A stretch of 64,000 nt of DNA, from contig CAJYLQ010000037.1 of NCBI GenBank assembly GCA_913775975.1, forward strand, positions 62,001 to 126,000. Direction: 5' to 3'. Under the pieces are notes generated by a model. The model did not search any database, was not told the origin of the DNA, and was given only the letters and a program-made list of their open reading frames with translations. The first letter of the stretch is position 1, and the number at the start of each line of letters is the position of its first letter. Both the position numbers and the translations under genes were made by a program. This DNA is from an uncultured Sphingomonas sp. GTDB lineage: Bacteria > Pseudomonadota > Alphaproteobacteria > Sphingomonadales > Sphingomonadaceae. This document shows positions 46,491 to 64,000 of this stretch, piece by piece.

Positions 46491-46567
<77 letters not shown>

Positions 46568-46720: not shown

Positions 46721-46975
46721 TCAAAGGTTGAAATCTATCTGCTCGGGCCGAACGTACCGAGGTGCCACGACATAGCCCTCGGCTGCCAAACGGCGCAGCG
46801 ACTCCGCGTGCACCAGCCGGCGCCGGCCGATCTTCACGGTTGTGATCTCGCCGCCCGCGACCAGCTCGTAGAAGGACGTGCGACCAATGCCAATCATGGC
46901 GAGCGCCTCCTTCACCGTAACAGTGAGAGGGTGCGATATGGAATGGGTGCCAGCCGGCTCCCGGATGCTCTTCAT
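46721..46975 (-). CDS. excisionase/AlpA-like HTH protein (first)
   Basis: 84 aa DNA-binding protein of the MerR-like excisionase type. The helix-turn-helix segment VKEALAMIGIGRTSFYELVAGG and the wing IGRRRLVHAESLRRL are typical of HTH_17 proteins such as AlpA or Xis, which control integration and excision of elements. ATG at 46975 follows AGGAGTCTGG. It is the first gene after the tRNA and points toward it. It is clearly paralogous to the smaller gene at 54694. Confidence 0.85.
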   Translation of the reverse strand: MKSIREPAGTHSISHPLTVTVKEALAMIGIGRTSFYELVAGGEITTVKIGRRRLVHAESLRRLAAEGYVVAPRYVRPEQIDFNL

Positions 46976-47371
46976 AAACCAGACTCCTAGCAGGGAGGCT
47001 GGTGGGCTCTTCGACACCTGCAACGTACGGGGGTTCGACCACGAAGAACAAGTAGCTTTGAGGCCTACAATCGGAGGCTACTTGATCCCGATCGACTACA
47101 AATTTTCTCCACCTCATCAACGGCTTAGCCAATGTGATCGGCTGGGATCAAAAAACTAGTCGCTTGGGATCGGGATGCCGAAGCGCGGAAAAGCGCCATT
47201 TTTCGCACGCGAAGCTTGCGTTCGGTGTGTATATTCCCGCCCGGTCAACCCGCGAAGCCTCGCCACGGTCGTGAGCGGGCTACGATGCGCTATCTGCTCC
47301 GGTGTGGACTGTCTCCGCCGTGAGGCGGCATCTTGTTTGAGCTATCTGCCGCGGATCAGAGTTGTCGCCTC
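46976..47371. other. 396-bp low-GC intergenic region, no convincing gene
   Basis: This holds the divergent promoters of the excisionase-like gene and of the coiled-coil gene at 47372. The track ORF 47175-47387 has no recognisable family and a weak start. I see A/T-rich patches (ACAAATTTTCTCC, ATCAAAAAACTAGTC) and partly repeated GATCCCGATC/GATCGGGAT motifs, but no RNA gene. Confidence 0.5.
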
Positions 47372-58010: not shown

Positions 58011-58712
58011 CTAAGCTGCGACTAATTCAGCGATCTTAGTCGCGATCGCCGCCATCGACTCTTCGGAGGTGCTTAGCCCGGCCCGCGACGCAAGCAGGAG
58101 GCTGACCTTTTCGAGTTCCTCGTAGGTCGTCCCATGCACGACTGGAACAAGGCGCTCCCGCCGCAGCAGAGCCGAAAGCTCCTTGTCAGCGACACCCTCT
58201 GCCGGAAGCCGGCGTAACATCGCGGGCGTCACCAGCACGATCCCGACACGAGAGTTCACCAGGCCCTTGTCGATCGCCCGCATCATCGGCACGCCAAGGC
58301 CAAGGTCTTTCTCGCTAAACCACACCCGAACGCCGCGCGCTTCCAGCAGGTCATGGAGGTCTTTCGCTGACCCCTGACGATCATCCCAAGCGTGGCACAG
58401 GAAAACGTCTCGAAGGTCAGGCTGTGAAACGGCGAGGCTTTCGACCTCTTCTCGAACCGGTGTCAGCGCCCGTACCTCTTCGGGCGTGTACCACACCCCG
58501 GAACCTGACGGGGACCAGCGCGGCTTTGAGCTGCGCCGCCCGGTGCCTCCCGATGAAGAGGGGGACGGGGTAGGGCTATAGCCTCCGTAGCCGCTGTAAC
58601 CGCCGTAACCGCCGTATCCACCGTAGCCTCTCGACCGACCACCACAGGCAGGACAATCGGCTGCCGCTGCCGCCGAACGATGTCCCCTAGTCGGTGCAGT
58701 ACATCTGGCCAC
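58011..58712 (-). CDS. zinc-finger TIR-domain protein
   Basis: 233 aa, three regions. Residues 1-29 hold Cys4, His11, Cys20 and Cys23 (RCTAPTRGH ... DCPACGG), a small zinc finger. Residues about 29-70 are low complexity with repeated YGGYGG and Ser/Pro. Residues about 98-230 are a TIR domain: RDVFLCHAWDDRQGSAKDLH, GVRVWFSEKDLGLGVPMM and DKELSALLRR, the last with the candidate NADase glutamate. Bacterial TIR proteins degrade or convert NAD during phage defence. GTG start at 58712 behind AAAGGGGGAGG. Third gene of its cassette; no ThsA or other known TIR partner is in the window. Confidence 0.82.
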   Translation of the reverse strand: MARCTAPTRGHRSAAAAADCPACGGRSRGYGGYGGYGGYSGYGGYSPTPSPSSSGGTGRRSSKPRWSPSGSGVWYTPEEVRALTPVREEVESLAVSQPDLRDVFLCHAWDDRQGSAKDLHDLLEARGVRVWFSEKDLGLGVPMMRAIDKGLVNSRVGIVLVTPAMLRRLPAEGVADKELSALLRRERLVPVVHGTTYEELEKVSLLLASRAGLSTSEESMAAIATKIAELVAA

Positions 58713-58814: not shown

Positions 58815-59513
58815 TCATCGACCGCGACGCTTTGGACGATAGCCGTTCCGTCGTCGCCGCAATCCACGCTCGAACAGCTTATCGTGGAGCAACGCAGTCA
58901 GCCTCGCCTGCCATCCGTCCGTATGCACTACCCGGTCGAAGTGGGCGTCTTGGTCTCGGAGAAGATCAAGACGCGATCGTTGCGATACCGCGCTCCAATC
59001 TTGGTAGAGTAGATAAACCGCGTTGCCGTACTTCAAGTTCTCGAACACAACCAAATCGTCAGAAAATTGAGCTCCGAAATACGATCCGAAGCCGCCTTGG
59101 CCACGGATGTACGCCTTTGGCTGAAAACCCTCGAACAATTGCACCCGCTCTCGCACGTGCTTCTTGAAATCTGGTGCATTCGCGGGGTGCGCCGATCCTA
59201 CCAGCCGCGTCACGACCTCATCAGCAGTACCCGGCGGGAATATCTGCCAATCGAGTGTGACTGTGGAGATGTACTCCTCTCTGCTAGCATTGCTCGCGAA
59301 GACGCCGGTGACCCCGGTGTTTTCTTGGAGCATATTGATCGACCAGAGTAACATCAGGTCGAACTCGGGCATCCCTCGTTCGAGCATCGGAGACAAAGCG
59401 AATTTCACCAGGACCACGTTGCCGCCGCGATCTTCAAGGACGTGCGGCTCCACCGTCATTCCCTGTGGTTCAAAGATCTGATGTTGGTAAACGTCCTTTG
59501 TCCAAGAACGCAT
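58815..59513 (-). CDS. hypothetical protein of TIR cassette
   Basis: 232 aa, cytoplasmic. No family recognised. Notable stretch YIRGQGGFGSYFGAQFSDDL, then VVFENLKYGNAVYLLYQDW and SQRSRLDLLRDQDAHFDRVV in the C-terminal half, which looks like a compact, probably ligand- or protein-binding domain, followed by a very basic tail (LRRRRNGYRPKRRGR). It lies between the 93-aa gene and the TIR gene on the same strand (gaps 57 and 102 bp). It may sense infection or be the partner of the TIR protein; this is inference. Confidence 0.75.
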   Translation of the reverse strand: MRSWTKDVYQHQIFEPQGMTVEPHVLEDRGGNVVLVKFALSPMLERGMPEFDLMLLWSINMLQENTGVTGVFASNASREEYISTVTLDWQIFPPGTADEVVTRLVGSAHPANAPDFKKHVRERVQLFEGFQPKAYIRGQGGFGSYFGAQFSDDLVVFENLKYGNAVYLLYQDWSAVSQRSRLDLLRDQDAHFDRVVHTDGWQARLTALLHDKLFERGLRRRRNGYRPKRRGR

Positions 59514-59570
59514 CGTCCACCCGTTGCGCGGGCCATTACCGAAGTTCGGTGACTCAAAGGTCCATGTCTT

Positions 59571-59852
59571 CTAAACCATCGGCCAGTCTTGGCGCTTGCG
59601 ATCCCAGCCGAAAGCGTTTCGTTCCGACCACTTGCCGGCGTCAGCAGGAGGGGAAACAGGGCCGGATGTAGCGACCTCGCCGTCCTCGATCCGCAAGCCA
59701 ACGTGAGCGTACACGCCAGCGGCGATATCGTCGCGGGACACTTTCTTTGTCGCCGCAACGGCGATCAGGTTGCCGTTGATGGCATCAAGCGAAGCTTGGA
59801 CGCTCGGCGGGACTTTCTGGTAGTTGCCCTTCCAAGGAAAACGTGACGGCAT
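59571..59852 (-). CDS. small hypothetical protein, first of TIR cassette
   Basis: 93 aa (MPSRFPWKGNYQKVPPSVQA start; SRDDIAAGVYAHVGLRIEDG; tail WSERNAFGWDRKRQDWPMV). Good ribosome site GGGAGGG and an A/T-rich upstream region support this as the head of the three-gene leftward cassette. No domain recognised; no signal peptide. The right-hand palindrome lies 168 bp upstream. Confidence 0.75.
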   Translation of the reverse strand: MPSRFPWKGNYQKVPPSVQASLDAINGNLIAVAATKKVSRDDIAAGVYAHVGLRIEDGEVATSGPVSPPADAGKWSERNAFGWDRKRQDWPMV

Positions 59853-60090: not shown

Positions 60091-61248
60091 TTAGCCCATG
60101 CTGGCGGGAGGGAAGCTGCTTCGCAAGCGGATAGGAACCACCCGCTGGTCTAGGTAGCCCTCAGTCAGCCCAGCTATTCCTTCGACATCGCGGAGGTTCA
60201 ATCCCAAGGACGCCTCGATCTGCGCGCGCGTGTACACGCCGTGTTCGACAAGCATGCGGAGTCCCTCGGCTAACACCGTCGGCCGATTAACCGGAAACGC
60301 ATCGTCCAGTGGCTCGACCTTGCGGATGCGCTGACTGTTCATTTGACGGAATAAATACGAGAACTGGTTTTCCGAGAGGATGCCAAGATCCCGGCTACGA
60401 TAGGCCATCGATGCGATCGACACTCCCCAACGCGCCTTGAGCGTTTTGAAGTAGGCGATCGAGCTGCCGAGCACCTCCCGGCTGAAGGTTTCCCGCGGCA
60501 GCAGAAACGCGCTGGCGAAGCGGTTAGCCTGCTTCTCGATCATGTCGAGGTTCGAGCTACTCACCTCAACGTCCGGATGAAGGATGAGATGGGCGAGCTC
60601 GTGTGCGAGATTGAACAAGTCGCGTGGACCGCCAGTGACCTCCTCCGACAAGAGCACGATCGGGCGTCCTCCGATCCAGCAACTGACCGCGTCCATGTCC
60701 TGGCATCGCACTGGCTCACGGACCAACAAGATGCCATTCGCCTCCATGTTCGCGGCAAGATTACGGATCGGACCGCGGCCTAGACCCCAGTGGTCTCGCA
60801 ACCGCTCGGCGGCGCACTCAATGTCGTCATTATCGCCGCGCTCCGCCTCGAACTCGAAGCTGGGGAAATTCACCGTAGGCAAGTCGATGAAGCGCTCCAA
60901 CAGCGTGCCGATATCGCCCGCCCACTGCATCCGGCGAACAATGCGCCGACGGTGATGCTGCTCCATGCGTTTCAGGCTGCGGAAGAACGGCGCCCGCGGC
61001 TCGCCTGCCCGTGGCGGCGTGCAGGTAAAAAACGAGATCGGCTGTCCCGTCTCCGCGATAATCTTACTCATCGTTTCACCGCTGGGCGACGCTTGGCCGG
61101 TCTCGAACTGCGCCACCGCTTGCCGGGTAACGCCGATCGCGTCGGCAAACGCCTCGCCGGAAAACCCGCGAGCCTCACGCGCCTCTCTAATTCGTTCTGG
61201 AATCGGCTTAGCTCCGGCCGAGGCCGGAGCGGTACGATCGGTGTCCAT
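60091..61248 (-). CDS. XRE-family HTH plus ImmA/IrrE metallopeptidase
   Basis: 385 aa. Residues 15-75 are an XRE helix-turn-helix (IREAREARGFSGEAFADAIG, VTRQAVAQFETGQASPS). The zinc peptidase motif HELAHLILHP near residue 210, with a later Glu in EKQANRFASAFLLP, marks an ImmA/IrrE domain. Such fused proteins act as self-cleaving or partner-cleaving regulators of mobile elements and toxin-like genes. It starts 14 bp after the 222-aa partner gene on the same strand and is the nearest regulator of the TIR cassette. Target unknown. Confidence 0.9.
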   Translation of the reverse strand: MDTDRTAPASAGAKPIPERIREAREARGFSGEAFADAIGVTRQAVAQFETGQASPSGETMSKIIAETGQPISFFTCTPPRAGEPRAPFFRSLKRMEQHHRRRIVRRMQWAGDIGTLLERFIDLPTVNFPSFEFEAERGDNDDIECAAERLRDHWGLGRGPIRNLAANMEANGILLVREPVRCQDMDAVSCWIGGRPIVLLSEEVTGGPRDLFNLAHELAHLILHPDVEVSSSNLDMIEKQANRFASAFLLPRETFSREVLGSSIAYFKTLKARWGVSIASMAYRSRDLGILSENQFSYLFRQMNSQRIRKVEPLDDAFPVNRPTVLAEGLRMLVEHGVYTRAQIEASLGLNLRDVEGIAGLTEGYLDQRVVPIRLRSSFPPASMG

Positions 61249-61262
61249 ATCGCTACCTGTAA

Positions 61263-61931
61263 TCAGGCTTTGTGGTCGAAATTCGACTCGTCAGTGTCCT
61301 TGCGCAGCGCCTCCTCGATATGATCACGAAAGCGGAGCACAACCGCCGGGGCGGTCGCCTCTGGCACCACCTCTACAAGGGGACCGAGGCGGCTCAGTAC
61401 GTTAGTCCGGGCGAGCCAGCTATTGCGGCCCGCCTCCGGCATTCCCCAGCAAAGGTGCGAGAGGTCGTGACCGCTCGCCCCAAACGTCAGCCACGCATAC
61501 AACTCAGGCTGAGCGGAAGGATGCAGCGGCACTACGACAGGATCGGTCTCGAATAGTTCAAGTTGATTGCTCAGGCGTTGATCCTGACGGGTCGGGGTCT
61601 CCTCGGGAAACGCAACAGCTCCGTCTGTCCGGCAGATATGGGCGCGGAATCGTCCCGATCGCACCTCAACCCAATGACCTCCGCCAAGCGGCATCCTCGT
61701 CATCTCGGATGCGAAAGGCAGATCGCCGGTTTTACAACTCTCATGCACGCTGAACAAAATCGCTGCTCGTCGAATGTGCCCCCTGATGTCCCCCCCGATC
61801 AGGGATTTTAGGAAGAGCTCATTATCCATCACGTCGCCGGCCAAACGGATCGCTTGGGACACCGAGCGCATCAACATCAGGTCAGTGTCAGCCGGGAACG
61901 CCTCGTCTAGCAGCTCCTGATACGATTCCAT
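61263..61931 (-). CDS. hypothetical partner of XRE-ImmA with clamp-like motif
   Basis: 222 aa from MESYQELL at 61931. No family recognised. Features: DIRGHIRRAAILFSVHESCK early, a QLELF pentapeptide at residues 123-127 (match to the beta-clamp binding consensus QL[S/D]LF), and an end rich in acidic residues. Soluble, no signal. It is upstream of and 14 bp from the XRE-ImmA gene, a typical spacing for toxin-regulator pairs, so it may be the controlled effector. This is inferred from arrangement only. Confidence 0.72.
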   Translation of the reverse strand: MESYQELLDEAFPADTDLMLMRSVSQAIRLAGDVMDNELFLKSLIGGDIRGHIRRAAILFSVHESCKTGDLPFASEMTRMPLGGGHWVEVRSGRFRAHICRTDGAVAFPEETPTRQDQRLSNQLELFETDPVVVPLHPSAQPELYAWLTFGASGHDLSHLCWGMPEAGRNSWLARTNVLSRLGPLVEVVPEATAPAVVLRFRDHIEEALRKDTDESNFDHKA

Positions 61932-62071
61932 CGTGCACATCCATTCCGATCACGGCAAGCATATTCCCGGGTTTTTCATTCCGCGTCAAGTGGGGCGTCA
62001 AAGACAGCTCACCCTCTCTCAACCGACGGGATCGGCGATCGCCGCGTGTGGCAACGAAATCCGCATCGATC

Positions 62072-62578
62072 TCAGATTAACGCGCTTGGATGGATCTCAA
62101 CGTATCCGGTAGCCGATTTAGCGACGCTCTTGCGGAAGGATGCGACTGCACCTGCACGAACTGCATCGTCGTCTATGATGCAAGCAGTCATCCCGGAAGT
62201 TAACGTCGCACTAAACCACTGGTTCAGCGACTCGCCTGCACAAATGCGCTCCACAGGCAGCTTTCTAATCATAGCGCATTCAATATAATTGACTGACCTT
62301 TCATAGAAGTAAGACATTAAAAAGCGGTGGTCAAAGCGCGGCTTCGGAAATACCGGTACGCCGCGCAAGTCAATGATCGTGGTCACCGCATTCATTATGA
62401 CGGAACGAATGAACCTGTCTTGATCCAGTACGGCAATATCGAGGTACGAAATCGTTGGTATTGAAGTATATGCATGATCGAACAATTCTAATTGTTCAGG
62501 CTCGCTGAGAAACGATTTCCCCTCCCTTTGGGCCAAGCGCCATCCGAGAGGAAGATGATGTACGTTACTGTCACGCAT
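62072..62578 (-). CDS. hypothetical protein overlapping the deaminase gene
   Basis: 168 aa from ATG 62578, which overlaps the deaminase stop by 8 bp, so the two are translated together. No family recognised. It carries QLELF at residues 29-33 (EPEQLELFDHA), the same clamp-like pentapeptide as the gene at 61263. Later segments include TIIDLRGVPVFPKPRFDHRF. Lower-GC codons than the core genome. It is probably an accessory or specificity factor of the deaminase system. Confidence 0.72.
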   Translation of the reverse strand: MRDSNVHHLPLGWRLAQREGKSFLSEPEQLELFDHAYTSIPTISYLDIAVLDQDRFIRSVIMNAVTTIIDLRGVPVFPKPRFDHRFLMSYFYERSVNYIECAMIRKLPVERICAGESLNQWFSATLTSGMTACIIDDDAVRAGAVASFRKSVAKSATGYVEIHPSALI

Positions 62579-64000
62579 CAACAACACCTGCGGTCAGTAC
62601 GGCTGGGACAAGCTTCATGGCTTCCTGCTCAACCAAATCGAGTTCTCGTAGCCGCACGGCATAGTAGGGCTGACCGCCAGAACTGGGTTCATAGGCGCCT
62701 TTGCTACCTTTAAGAGTGGTTCTTTTTGCGAAGAAATCCTCATACATGCGCGGCCCGACTCCGGTGAACGGTGCTACTAGCATATGTGTGTAATTTCCCC
62801 CTGCCGCAGCAGGCTTTTCTCCGGTGATAGCGTCGGAATGAAGTTCATATGCCAAACTTTTCACGTATGGCTCTATAAAATAGACCTCGGAAACACCAGC
62901 CGCGACAAGATGCCTGGCACAGTTATGGCACGGATAAGTGGTAACGTAGAGCGCGGTACCGACGGTAGTGGTGCCGTTACGCGCAGCTGTCATCAGCGCA
63001 CTCATTTCGGCATGTATCGCGCGGCTGTACTCGATAGCATCCTTTATTCCGGGCATCGTTCCAAGGGCCGAGGCGGCCTCCAGCAGGGCCTTCGCTGCTC
63101 GATCGCTTGCTTCCTTGCGCTTATCGGCGTGCAAGTCCTCGCCCATAAAGTGGTCTTTGGGGAACAACTTCTCCGCGATTGGATCGGCGAGACGCTTCGA
63201 CATCCAATTAGCAATTGTGTCGTAAAGCTCGTGCTTTTTGCGGTCGTTATGGCAACCCTTGAATTTTCCTGTCTTGGTGTCAAACTCCCAAGCGAAGCAG
63301 CGGTTGTCGGGCTTTGAATCTTCGTCGTATATCCCACCGCCGAAACGAGGTGGATCGTTCGTTCCGGTCGCGATGACGCTTCCATCCTTCGCGACTAAAG
63401 CGGCACCGACCTGTCGCGACAGGCAGGCCGACTGCAGAGCTGCGGCAGAGGCGTGGTAGATGGCCCTCTCCCCCTTCGTTGGTCGGACCAGGTCTCGGTC
63501 GAGCAGCAGGTTCACAAAGCGCGAGATATCGGCGTTCATAGCCGATCCGCTCTGAGAATTGGCGGTGTTGTCGAGGAAAAAATCAGCAAGATGGAATGCA
63601 TCGCGAACGCGCTGACCATGGGCGTGAATGTCGTCCTTAGAATCGCGATCCATGAATTTTCGGACTTCCTCCCTCGCGGCGCCGCTATACTTGGCTGTTG
63701 ATGTCACATCTCCGATCAGGCGCTCTTCGCGTTTCGATACGTCGCAGTGGACCGCGACCAAGCGGAAGGAGTGGTCATAGACCTTGCGAAGCAAGGTGAC
63801 CTCGGCCGGATGCTTAAGAGAATCGAGGATGAAGGCTAGCTTCCGTTCGCCAGGAGCTGAGTCCCCTCGTTTGGCCTTTAGACGGGCAATCGCCGCAACA
63901 GCCAACGCATGATCGCCGTGCGTCTTGCGGATCGTGTCTCCGCGGTCTTGCATCATGGTCGCAATCGCGAAACGAGACAGACCCTTCCTCGCACCTTCCT
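62571..64000 (-). CDS. AvcD-like nucleotide (dCMP/dCTP) deaminase, N-terminus cut by window edge
   Basis: At least 476 aa in the window. The frame stays open past the track's Met at 63956 to the edge (GLSRFAIATMMQDRG), so the start is outside. The first part has a nucleotide-kinase-like segment (AFILDSLKHPAEVTLLRKVY); the second is a zinc deoxycytidylate deaminase domain with HAEMSAL and PCHNCARHL. This two-domain layout matches the anti-phage deaminase AvcD, which depletes dCTP/dCMP pools on infection (established in Vibrio and E. coli). P-loop and any regulatory RNA would lie beyond base 64000. Confidence 0.88.
   Translation of the reverse strand, partial: EGARKGLSRFAIATMMQDRGDTIRKTHGDHALAVAAIARLKAKRGDSAPGERKLAFILDSLKHPAEVTLLRKVYDHSFRLVAVHCDVSKREERLIGDVTSTAKYSGAAREEVRKFMDRDSKDDIHAHGQRVRDAFHLADFFLDNTANSQSGSAMNADISRFVNLLLDRDLVRPTKGERAIYHASAAALQSACLSRQVGAALVAKDGSVIATGTNDPPRFGGGIYDEDSKPDNRCFAWEFDTKTGKFKGCHNDRKKHELYDTIANWMSKRLADPIAEKLFPKDHFMGEDLHADKRKEASDRAAKALLEAASALGTMPGIKDAIEYSRAIHAEMSALMTAARNGTTTVGTALYVTTYPCHNCARHLVAAGVSEVYFIEPYVKSLAYELHSDAITGEKPAAAGGNYTHMLVAPFTGVGPRMYEDFFAKRTTLKGSKGAYEPSSGGQPYYAVRLRELDLVEQEAMKLVPAVLTAGVVDA

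Follow-up and report, generated by a model that had tools for sequence, protein, structure and literature searches.

How a short TIR protein with its own metal-site-like tip might act, and whether it needs a partner to do so, is the question raised by a gene of an uncultured Sphingomonas sp. within the 64,000 nucleotides of contig sequence analysed here (hereafter the window; Table 1). The original prediction placed a zinc finger, a low-complexity linker and a TIR domain in this protein, and proposed an undescribed TIR system in which the finger reads a signal and the linker allows assembly.

Table 1. Features of the window that bear on the finger-TIR gene and its surroundings.
Feature	Position	Strand	Basis or remark
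Finger + linker + TIR gene	58011..58712	(-)	233 aa, GTG start, intact
Finger, residues 4-23 (C4, H11, C20, C23)	58644..58703	(-)	Ligands invariant, 105/105
Ser/Gly/Tyr/Arg-rich linker, residues 24-65	58518..58643	(-)	Composition; AlphaFold2
TIR domain, residues 100-233	58014..58415	(-)	Pfam TIR_2; Foldseek
Candidate catalytic Glu178, KEL motif	58179..58181	(-)	104/105 conserved; aligned to known TIRs
Companion gene, 345 aa in relatives	58815..59852	(-)	In-frame TAG at codon 94 (59571-59573)
RmrA-like (RosmerTA) HTH/IrrE-peptidase gene	60091..61248	(-)	PADLOC E 1.5e-107; neighbour, outside system
RmrT-like (RosmerTA) gene	61263..61940	(-)	PADLOC E 8e-18; neighbour, outside system
Anti-phage dCTP deaminase gene	62571..63956	(-)	NCBIfam NF041025 408 bits (cut-off 400); PADLOC dCTPase E 3e-131; neighbour, outside system

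Architecture of the finger-TIR protein

The N-terminus of the window protein (MARCTAPTRGHRSAAAAADCPACGG; residues 1-23 in full, MARCTAPTRGHRSAAAAADCPAC) carries Cys4, His11, Cys20 and Cys23 just as the original prediction described them. Homologues that combine finger and TIR domain, which are 57-97% identical to the window protein over its full length, were collected from plasmids (349 records), genomes (the best 80 of 429 confirmed loci) and viral contigs (18 loci), and 107 loci, the window included, were analysed, 105 of them with an intact N-terminus and two truncated where a contig stops. Each of the four ligands is invariant in all 105 intact homologues, which span nine phyla, as are A6, G10 and P21, and T5 and P7 are each kept in 104 of the 105. 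In one subgroup the spacing between H11 and C20 is shorter by one residue (for example GHTRGGGADCPVC) and all ligands are retained; variable spacing around fixed ligands is the pattern expected of a metal site. Judged from these alignments, the conservation of the finger is not a matter of chance, and the CHCC finger is a putative zinc-binding site.

The segment that follows the finger is G/Y/S-rich in the window protein (GYGGYGGYGGYSGYGGY), as predicted, and the same bias runs through the family: across 101 homologues the linker contains 33% S, 22% G, 12% R and 12% Y, versus 8, 6, 8 and 1%, respectively, in the remainder of the protein. Its length ranges from 24 to 52 aa in these homologues, and its composition is maintained while its sequence drifts. 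An AlphaFold2 model built from a 44-sequence alignment, and lacking metal, places the TIR domain and the helix preceding it with confidence, gives the finger a pLDDT of ~66-74, and shows the linker as disordered (pLDDT <50 at residues 27-57, in a numbering that omits the first Met). With Tyr and Arg set among Ser and Gly, the linker is reminiscent of condensing low-complexity segments, a resemblance that is suggestive only.

Assignment of the C-terminal domain is supported by a Pfam TIR_2 match to residues 103-196 (E 1.5e-15) and by Foldseek matches to BtpA/TcpB, PdTIR, BtTir and AbTir (probability 1.00, TM-score by target about 0.7-0.88). These four proteins share the TIR fold with the window protein at 27-30% identity and with the glutamate aligned, but the matches extend over the TIR domain only, and none covers the finger or the linker. 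In a profile alignment E178, within a KEL motif, pairs with the glutamate of QKEL in PdTIR and of YEL in AbTir, in agreement with the candidate catalytic residue of the original prediction. The glutamate at the equivalent position is catalytic in TIR NADases of the PdTIR/AbTir class, and the window TIR is predicted to cleave NAD+ by means of Glu178. The TIR part of the gene is under strong purifying selection (dN/dS 0.02-0.06).

The possibility that the finger is a shuffled domain, also borne by other effectors, was rejected after a finger-only profile was run over 798 genomes (399 Pseudomonadota and 399 Bacillota), where clear matches were solely to the finger-TIR family. Seven matches in Pseudomonadota fell below E 1e-12; in six of these the finger is followed by the TIR domain, and the seventh is truncated by the end of its contig. 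An additional match was a copy split in its finger by an IS21-type element; in Bacillota, all four strong matches were full finger-linker-TIR proteins. The weaker matches (E > 1e-4) were short or partial. As far as these genomes sample it, the finger appears to be private to the finger-TIR family.

Distribution and genomic surroundings

Plasmids, genomic islands and viral contigs carry the finger-TIR gene as cargo across nine phyla, and soil, plant-associated and free-living bacteria are among its hosts. Of 5,426 complete genomes of E. coli, 108 possess it, with ~82-86% DNA identity to a copy from Enterobacter; WP_001389195.1 is an E. coli homologue. Three of these chromosomes were opened, and in each the gene is solitary on a genomic island, flanked by genes on the opposite strand at distances of ~1.5 kb on the upstream side and ~0.4 kb on the downstream side. 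Close DNA matches occur in 140 plasmid records, mostly from Klebsiella, and in the plasmid copies of this type that were opened the gene adjoins an ISNCY-family transposase. At locus L157 (G124:C12:26300-31200) an IS21-type element with IstA/IstB-like genes has inserted within the finger of the homologue, which thereby constitutes a natural knock-out.

The window gene belongs to a cluster of defence genes. The RosmerTA-like RmrA/RmrT pair (60091-61940, minus strand) sits directly upstream of the TIR gene and its broken companion, followed by a 171-aa ORF (62072-62587) that is without a convincing family match and overlaps the dCTP deaminase gene by 17 bases. On the other side, a tRNA-Arg (CCG) gene at 46491-46567 on the plus strand is followed just beyond by a small HTH/excisionase-like ORF (46721-47023, minus strand), with the defence genes further on. 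This tRNA gene may mark where an integrated island ends, although a search for direct repeats of at least 18 bases, which would have proved it, found none.

Across the family this company is not constant. Clustering of the ORFs at the 107 loci revealed no general neighbour and one close partner, the clade-limited companion described below; apart from it and from recombinases, no close neighbour recurs at four or more loci, and one small ORF is found in three. A PADLOC scan of 77 loci, covering a single large neighbour at each, gave scattered matches that included IetS, AbiL, AriA, HerA, type I specificity subunits and type II methylases, with no defence system recurring near the finger-TIR gene. 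Location beside defence genes could reflect hitch-hiking on the same islands.

Thoeris and companion-gene alternatives

The database label attached to this protein is that of Thoeris. PADLOC model PDLC00424 (ThsB1/ThsB, TIR-like, Thoeris) describes the same protein family as the window TIR: it aligns residues 1-232 of 233 with profile positions 1-233 of 234 (E 2.4e-115), finger included. Since the model spans the protein end to end, the architecture was already in databases under a Thoeris label, and the proposal of an undescribed system is not supported in that form, although no paper dealing with the finger, these accessions or PDLC00424 was found in the open-access literature. It is natural to ask whether the window TIR is a ThsB whose cyclic-ADPR-type signal activates a ThsA encoded nearby or elsewhere, a reading with which the AbTir- and BtTir-like TIR fold also agrees. 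ThsA is the defining partner in Thoeris, but most finger-TIR carriers lack it and it is hardly ever encoded near the gene. In a search of 50 carrier genomes that covered the SIR2-SLOG and macro types of ThsA, a full-length SIR2-SLOG ThsA was present in seven and within 10 kb of the finger-TIR gene in one, Sinorhizobium americanum, while no genome contained a macro-type ThsA above the cut-off. With so few carriers encoding a full-length ThsA, a dedicated ThsA cannot be generally required, and these counts rule out Thoeris by neighbourhood as a general explanation.

The neighbours of the window gene include no ThsA by Pfam, NCBIfam or PADLOC, as the original prediction had observed, and none was found in the genome to which the window belongs, which is 84% complete and was searched without a positive control; a STALD search of that genome, likewise without a positive control, was negative. 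In S. americanum (L007/L042) only ~2.4 kb separate the finger-TIR gene from a complete Thoeris locus (TIR-SIR2/SLOG-TIR), a proximity that favours a link with Thoeris and is probably one reason for the ThsB label, but two other TIR genes already belong to this locus. We regard a ThsB function for the window protein as unlikely and the family as probably misfiled by the Thoeris profile, though Thoeris-type signalling may operate in some hosts, or may be directed to another effector.

A second alternative is a clade-specific two-gene system in which a 345-aa companion senses infection or restrains the TIR protein, the window copy having lost its companion. The original prediction counted a three-gene set, but the two ORFs upstream of the TIR gene (59571-59852, 93 aa; 58815-59513, 232 aa) are the parts of one gene split by a TAG codon, whose product as a whole is 91% identical over 345 residues to that of an intact relative. 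In relatives the companion is on the same strand, 60-107 bp upstream of the TIR gene, and it occurs at 12 of the 107 loci (including L075, in which only the C-terminus remains at the end of the contig), from several alphaproteobacterial orders and one Armatimonadota MAG; Sphingobium sp. Leaf26 is a relative in which the pair is intact. The companion is under purifying selection, and its dN/dS is low also after the stop, pointing to a break that is recent or to an error in the assembly.

The close linkage and the selection on the companion speak for a joint function, but its distribution argues against one. All companion-bearing loci except L075, which is placed in another TIR clade, fall within a clade of 13 in the TIR tree (support 100/98), with about four changes, a pattern compatible with one gain and several losses; the gene is repeatedly absent within this clade (L065, L043 and L037) and missing from most homologues, and in the window the TIR gene is intact next to a broken companion. 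Relatives of the companion are found in Alphaproteobacteria, Actinomycetota, Bacteroidota and others. Distant ones (26-42% identity) are also encoded where there is no finger-TIR gene, prophage cargo being one example. On two prophage contigs (L113 and L114) such relatives are situated between the terminase and portal genes. The companion has no Pfam or PADLOC match and no significant sequence match in the PDB, and its AlphaFold2 model (mean pLDDT 50.5) is too poor for use; it is itself a candidate defence gene for which no family model was found. We give the two-gene reading little credence.

A role outside defence, either as a toxin-like or stress NADase carried as mobile-element cargo or as an effector that acts on other cells in the manner of Brucella TIR proteins, is improbable: the inclusion of Brucella BtpA/TcpB among the closest solved structures and the occurrence as a solitary cargo gene on plasmids are set against soil, plant-associated and free-living carriers in nine phyla, varied anti-phage genes among the neighbours, and an N-terminus that is the finger itself, with no signal-peptide-like stretch seen.

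A possible stand-alone TIR receptor

The explanation that we favour, and judge to have a slightly better than even chance of being correct, is that the gene encodes a horizontally mobile TIR immune protein that is self-contained, acts in the manner of SpbK and causes abortive infection. The N-terminal CHCC finger would dock on a trigger or surface of phage origin or otherwise made or exposed during infection; the flexible S/G/Y/R linker would let TIR domains gather; the clustered TIR domains would switch on and consume NAD+ using Glu178; and the loss of NAD+ would stop the infected cell. In favour of this explanation are the invariant finger ligands and their restriction to the family in the genomes sampled, the glutamate conserved with one exception, the strong purifying selection on the TIR part, the mobility of the gene and the varied defence genes among its neighbours. 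The family has no obligatory ThsA or other partner, and a sensory role for the finger and an assembly role for the linker, as the original prediction envisaged, are plausible on sequence and precedent. A finger of about 20-25 residues, modelled with modest confidence, is small for a specific sensor and counts against this explanation.

The closest precedent is SpbK of Bacillus subtilis, a single-gene TIR NADase on a mobile element, whose N-terminal domains are brought together by the phage portal, allowing assembly of the TIR domains and cleavage of NAD+ (PMC12847820). Both proteins consist of an N-terminal domain, a linker and a C-terminal TIR domain encoded by one gene with no obligatory partner, but the SpbK TIR begins near residue 111, after an N-terminal domain larger than the tip of the window protein, and a CHCC finger is not described in the excerpts of the SpbK report drawn on here (PMC12847820). 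The original prediction had treated orphan TIR genes without conserved neighbours as an outcome that would refute its proposal; this description does fit most of the family, but SpbK indicates that an orphan TIR gene may still be a complete defence gene (PMC12847820). The TIR-NLR of P4-like satellites is likewise a single-gene TIR defence on mobile elements, but its sensor consists of a STAND NTPase and TPR repeats, neither of which is found in the window protein (PMC9122126).

A more specific form of the stand-alone explanation, which we advance tentatively and consider more doubtful than probable, is that the family is a minimal TIR receptor of nine phyla in which a ~20-residue CHCC finger carried by no other protein senses infection, and condensation or clustering through the low-complexity Ser/Gly/Tyr/Arg linker leads to the destruction of NAD+.

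The family is common, its members are ~233 residues long, and it is filed under Thoeris though most carriers are without ThsA. If the finger-TIR protein works alone, it would rank with the smallest self-contained TIR immune receptors known, its sensor being short enough for residue-by-residue mutagenesis, and single-gene ThsB matches would need to be re-read. In this way, the family would also provide a simple system for understanding how an invariant sensor recognises phages of very different hosts.
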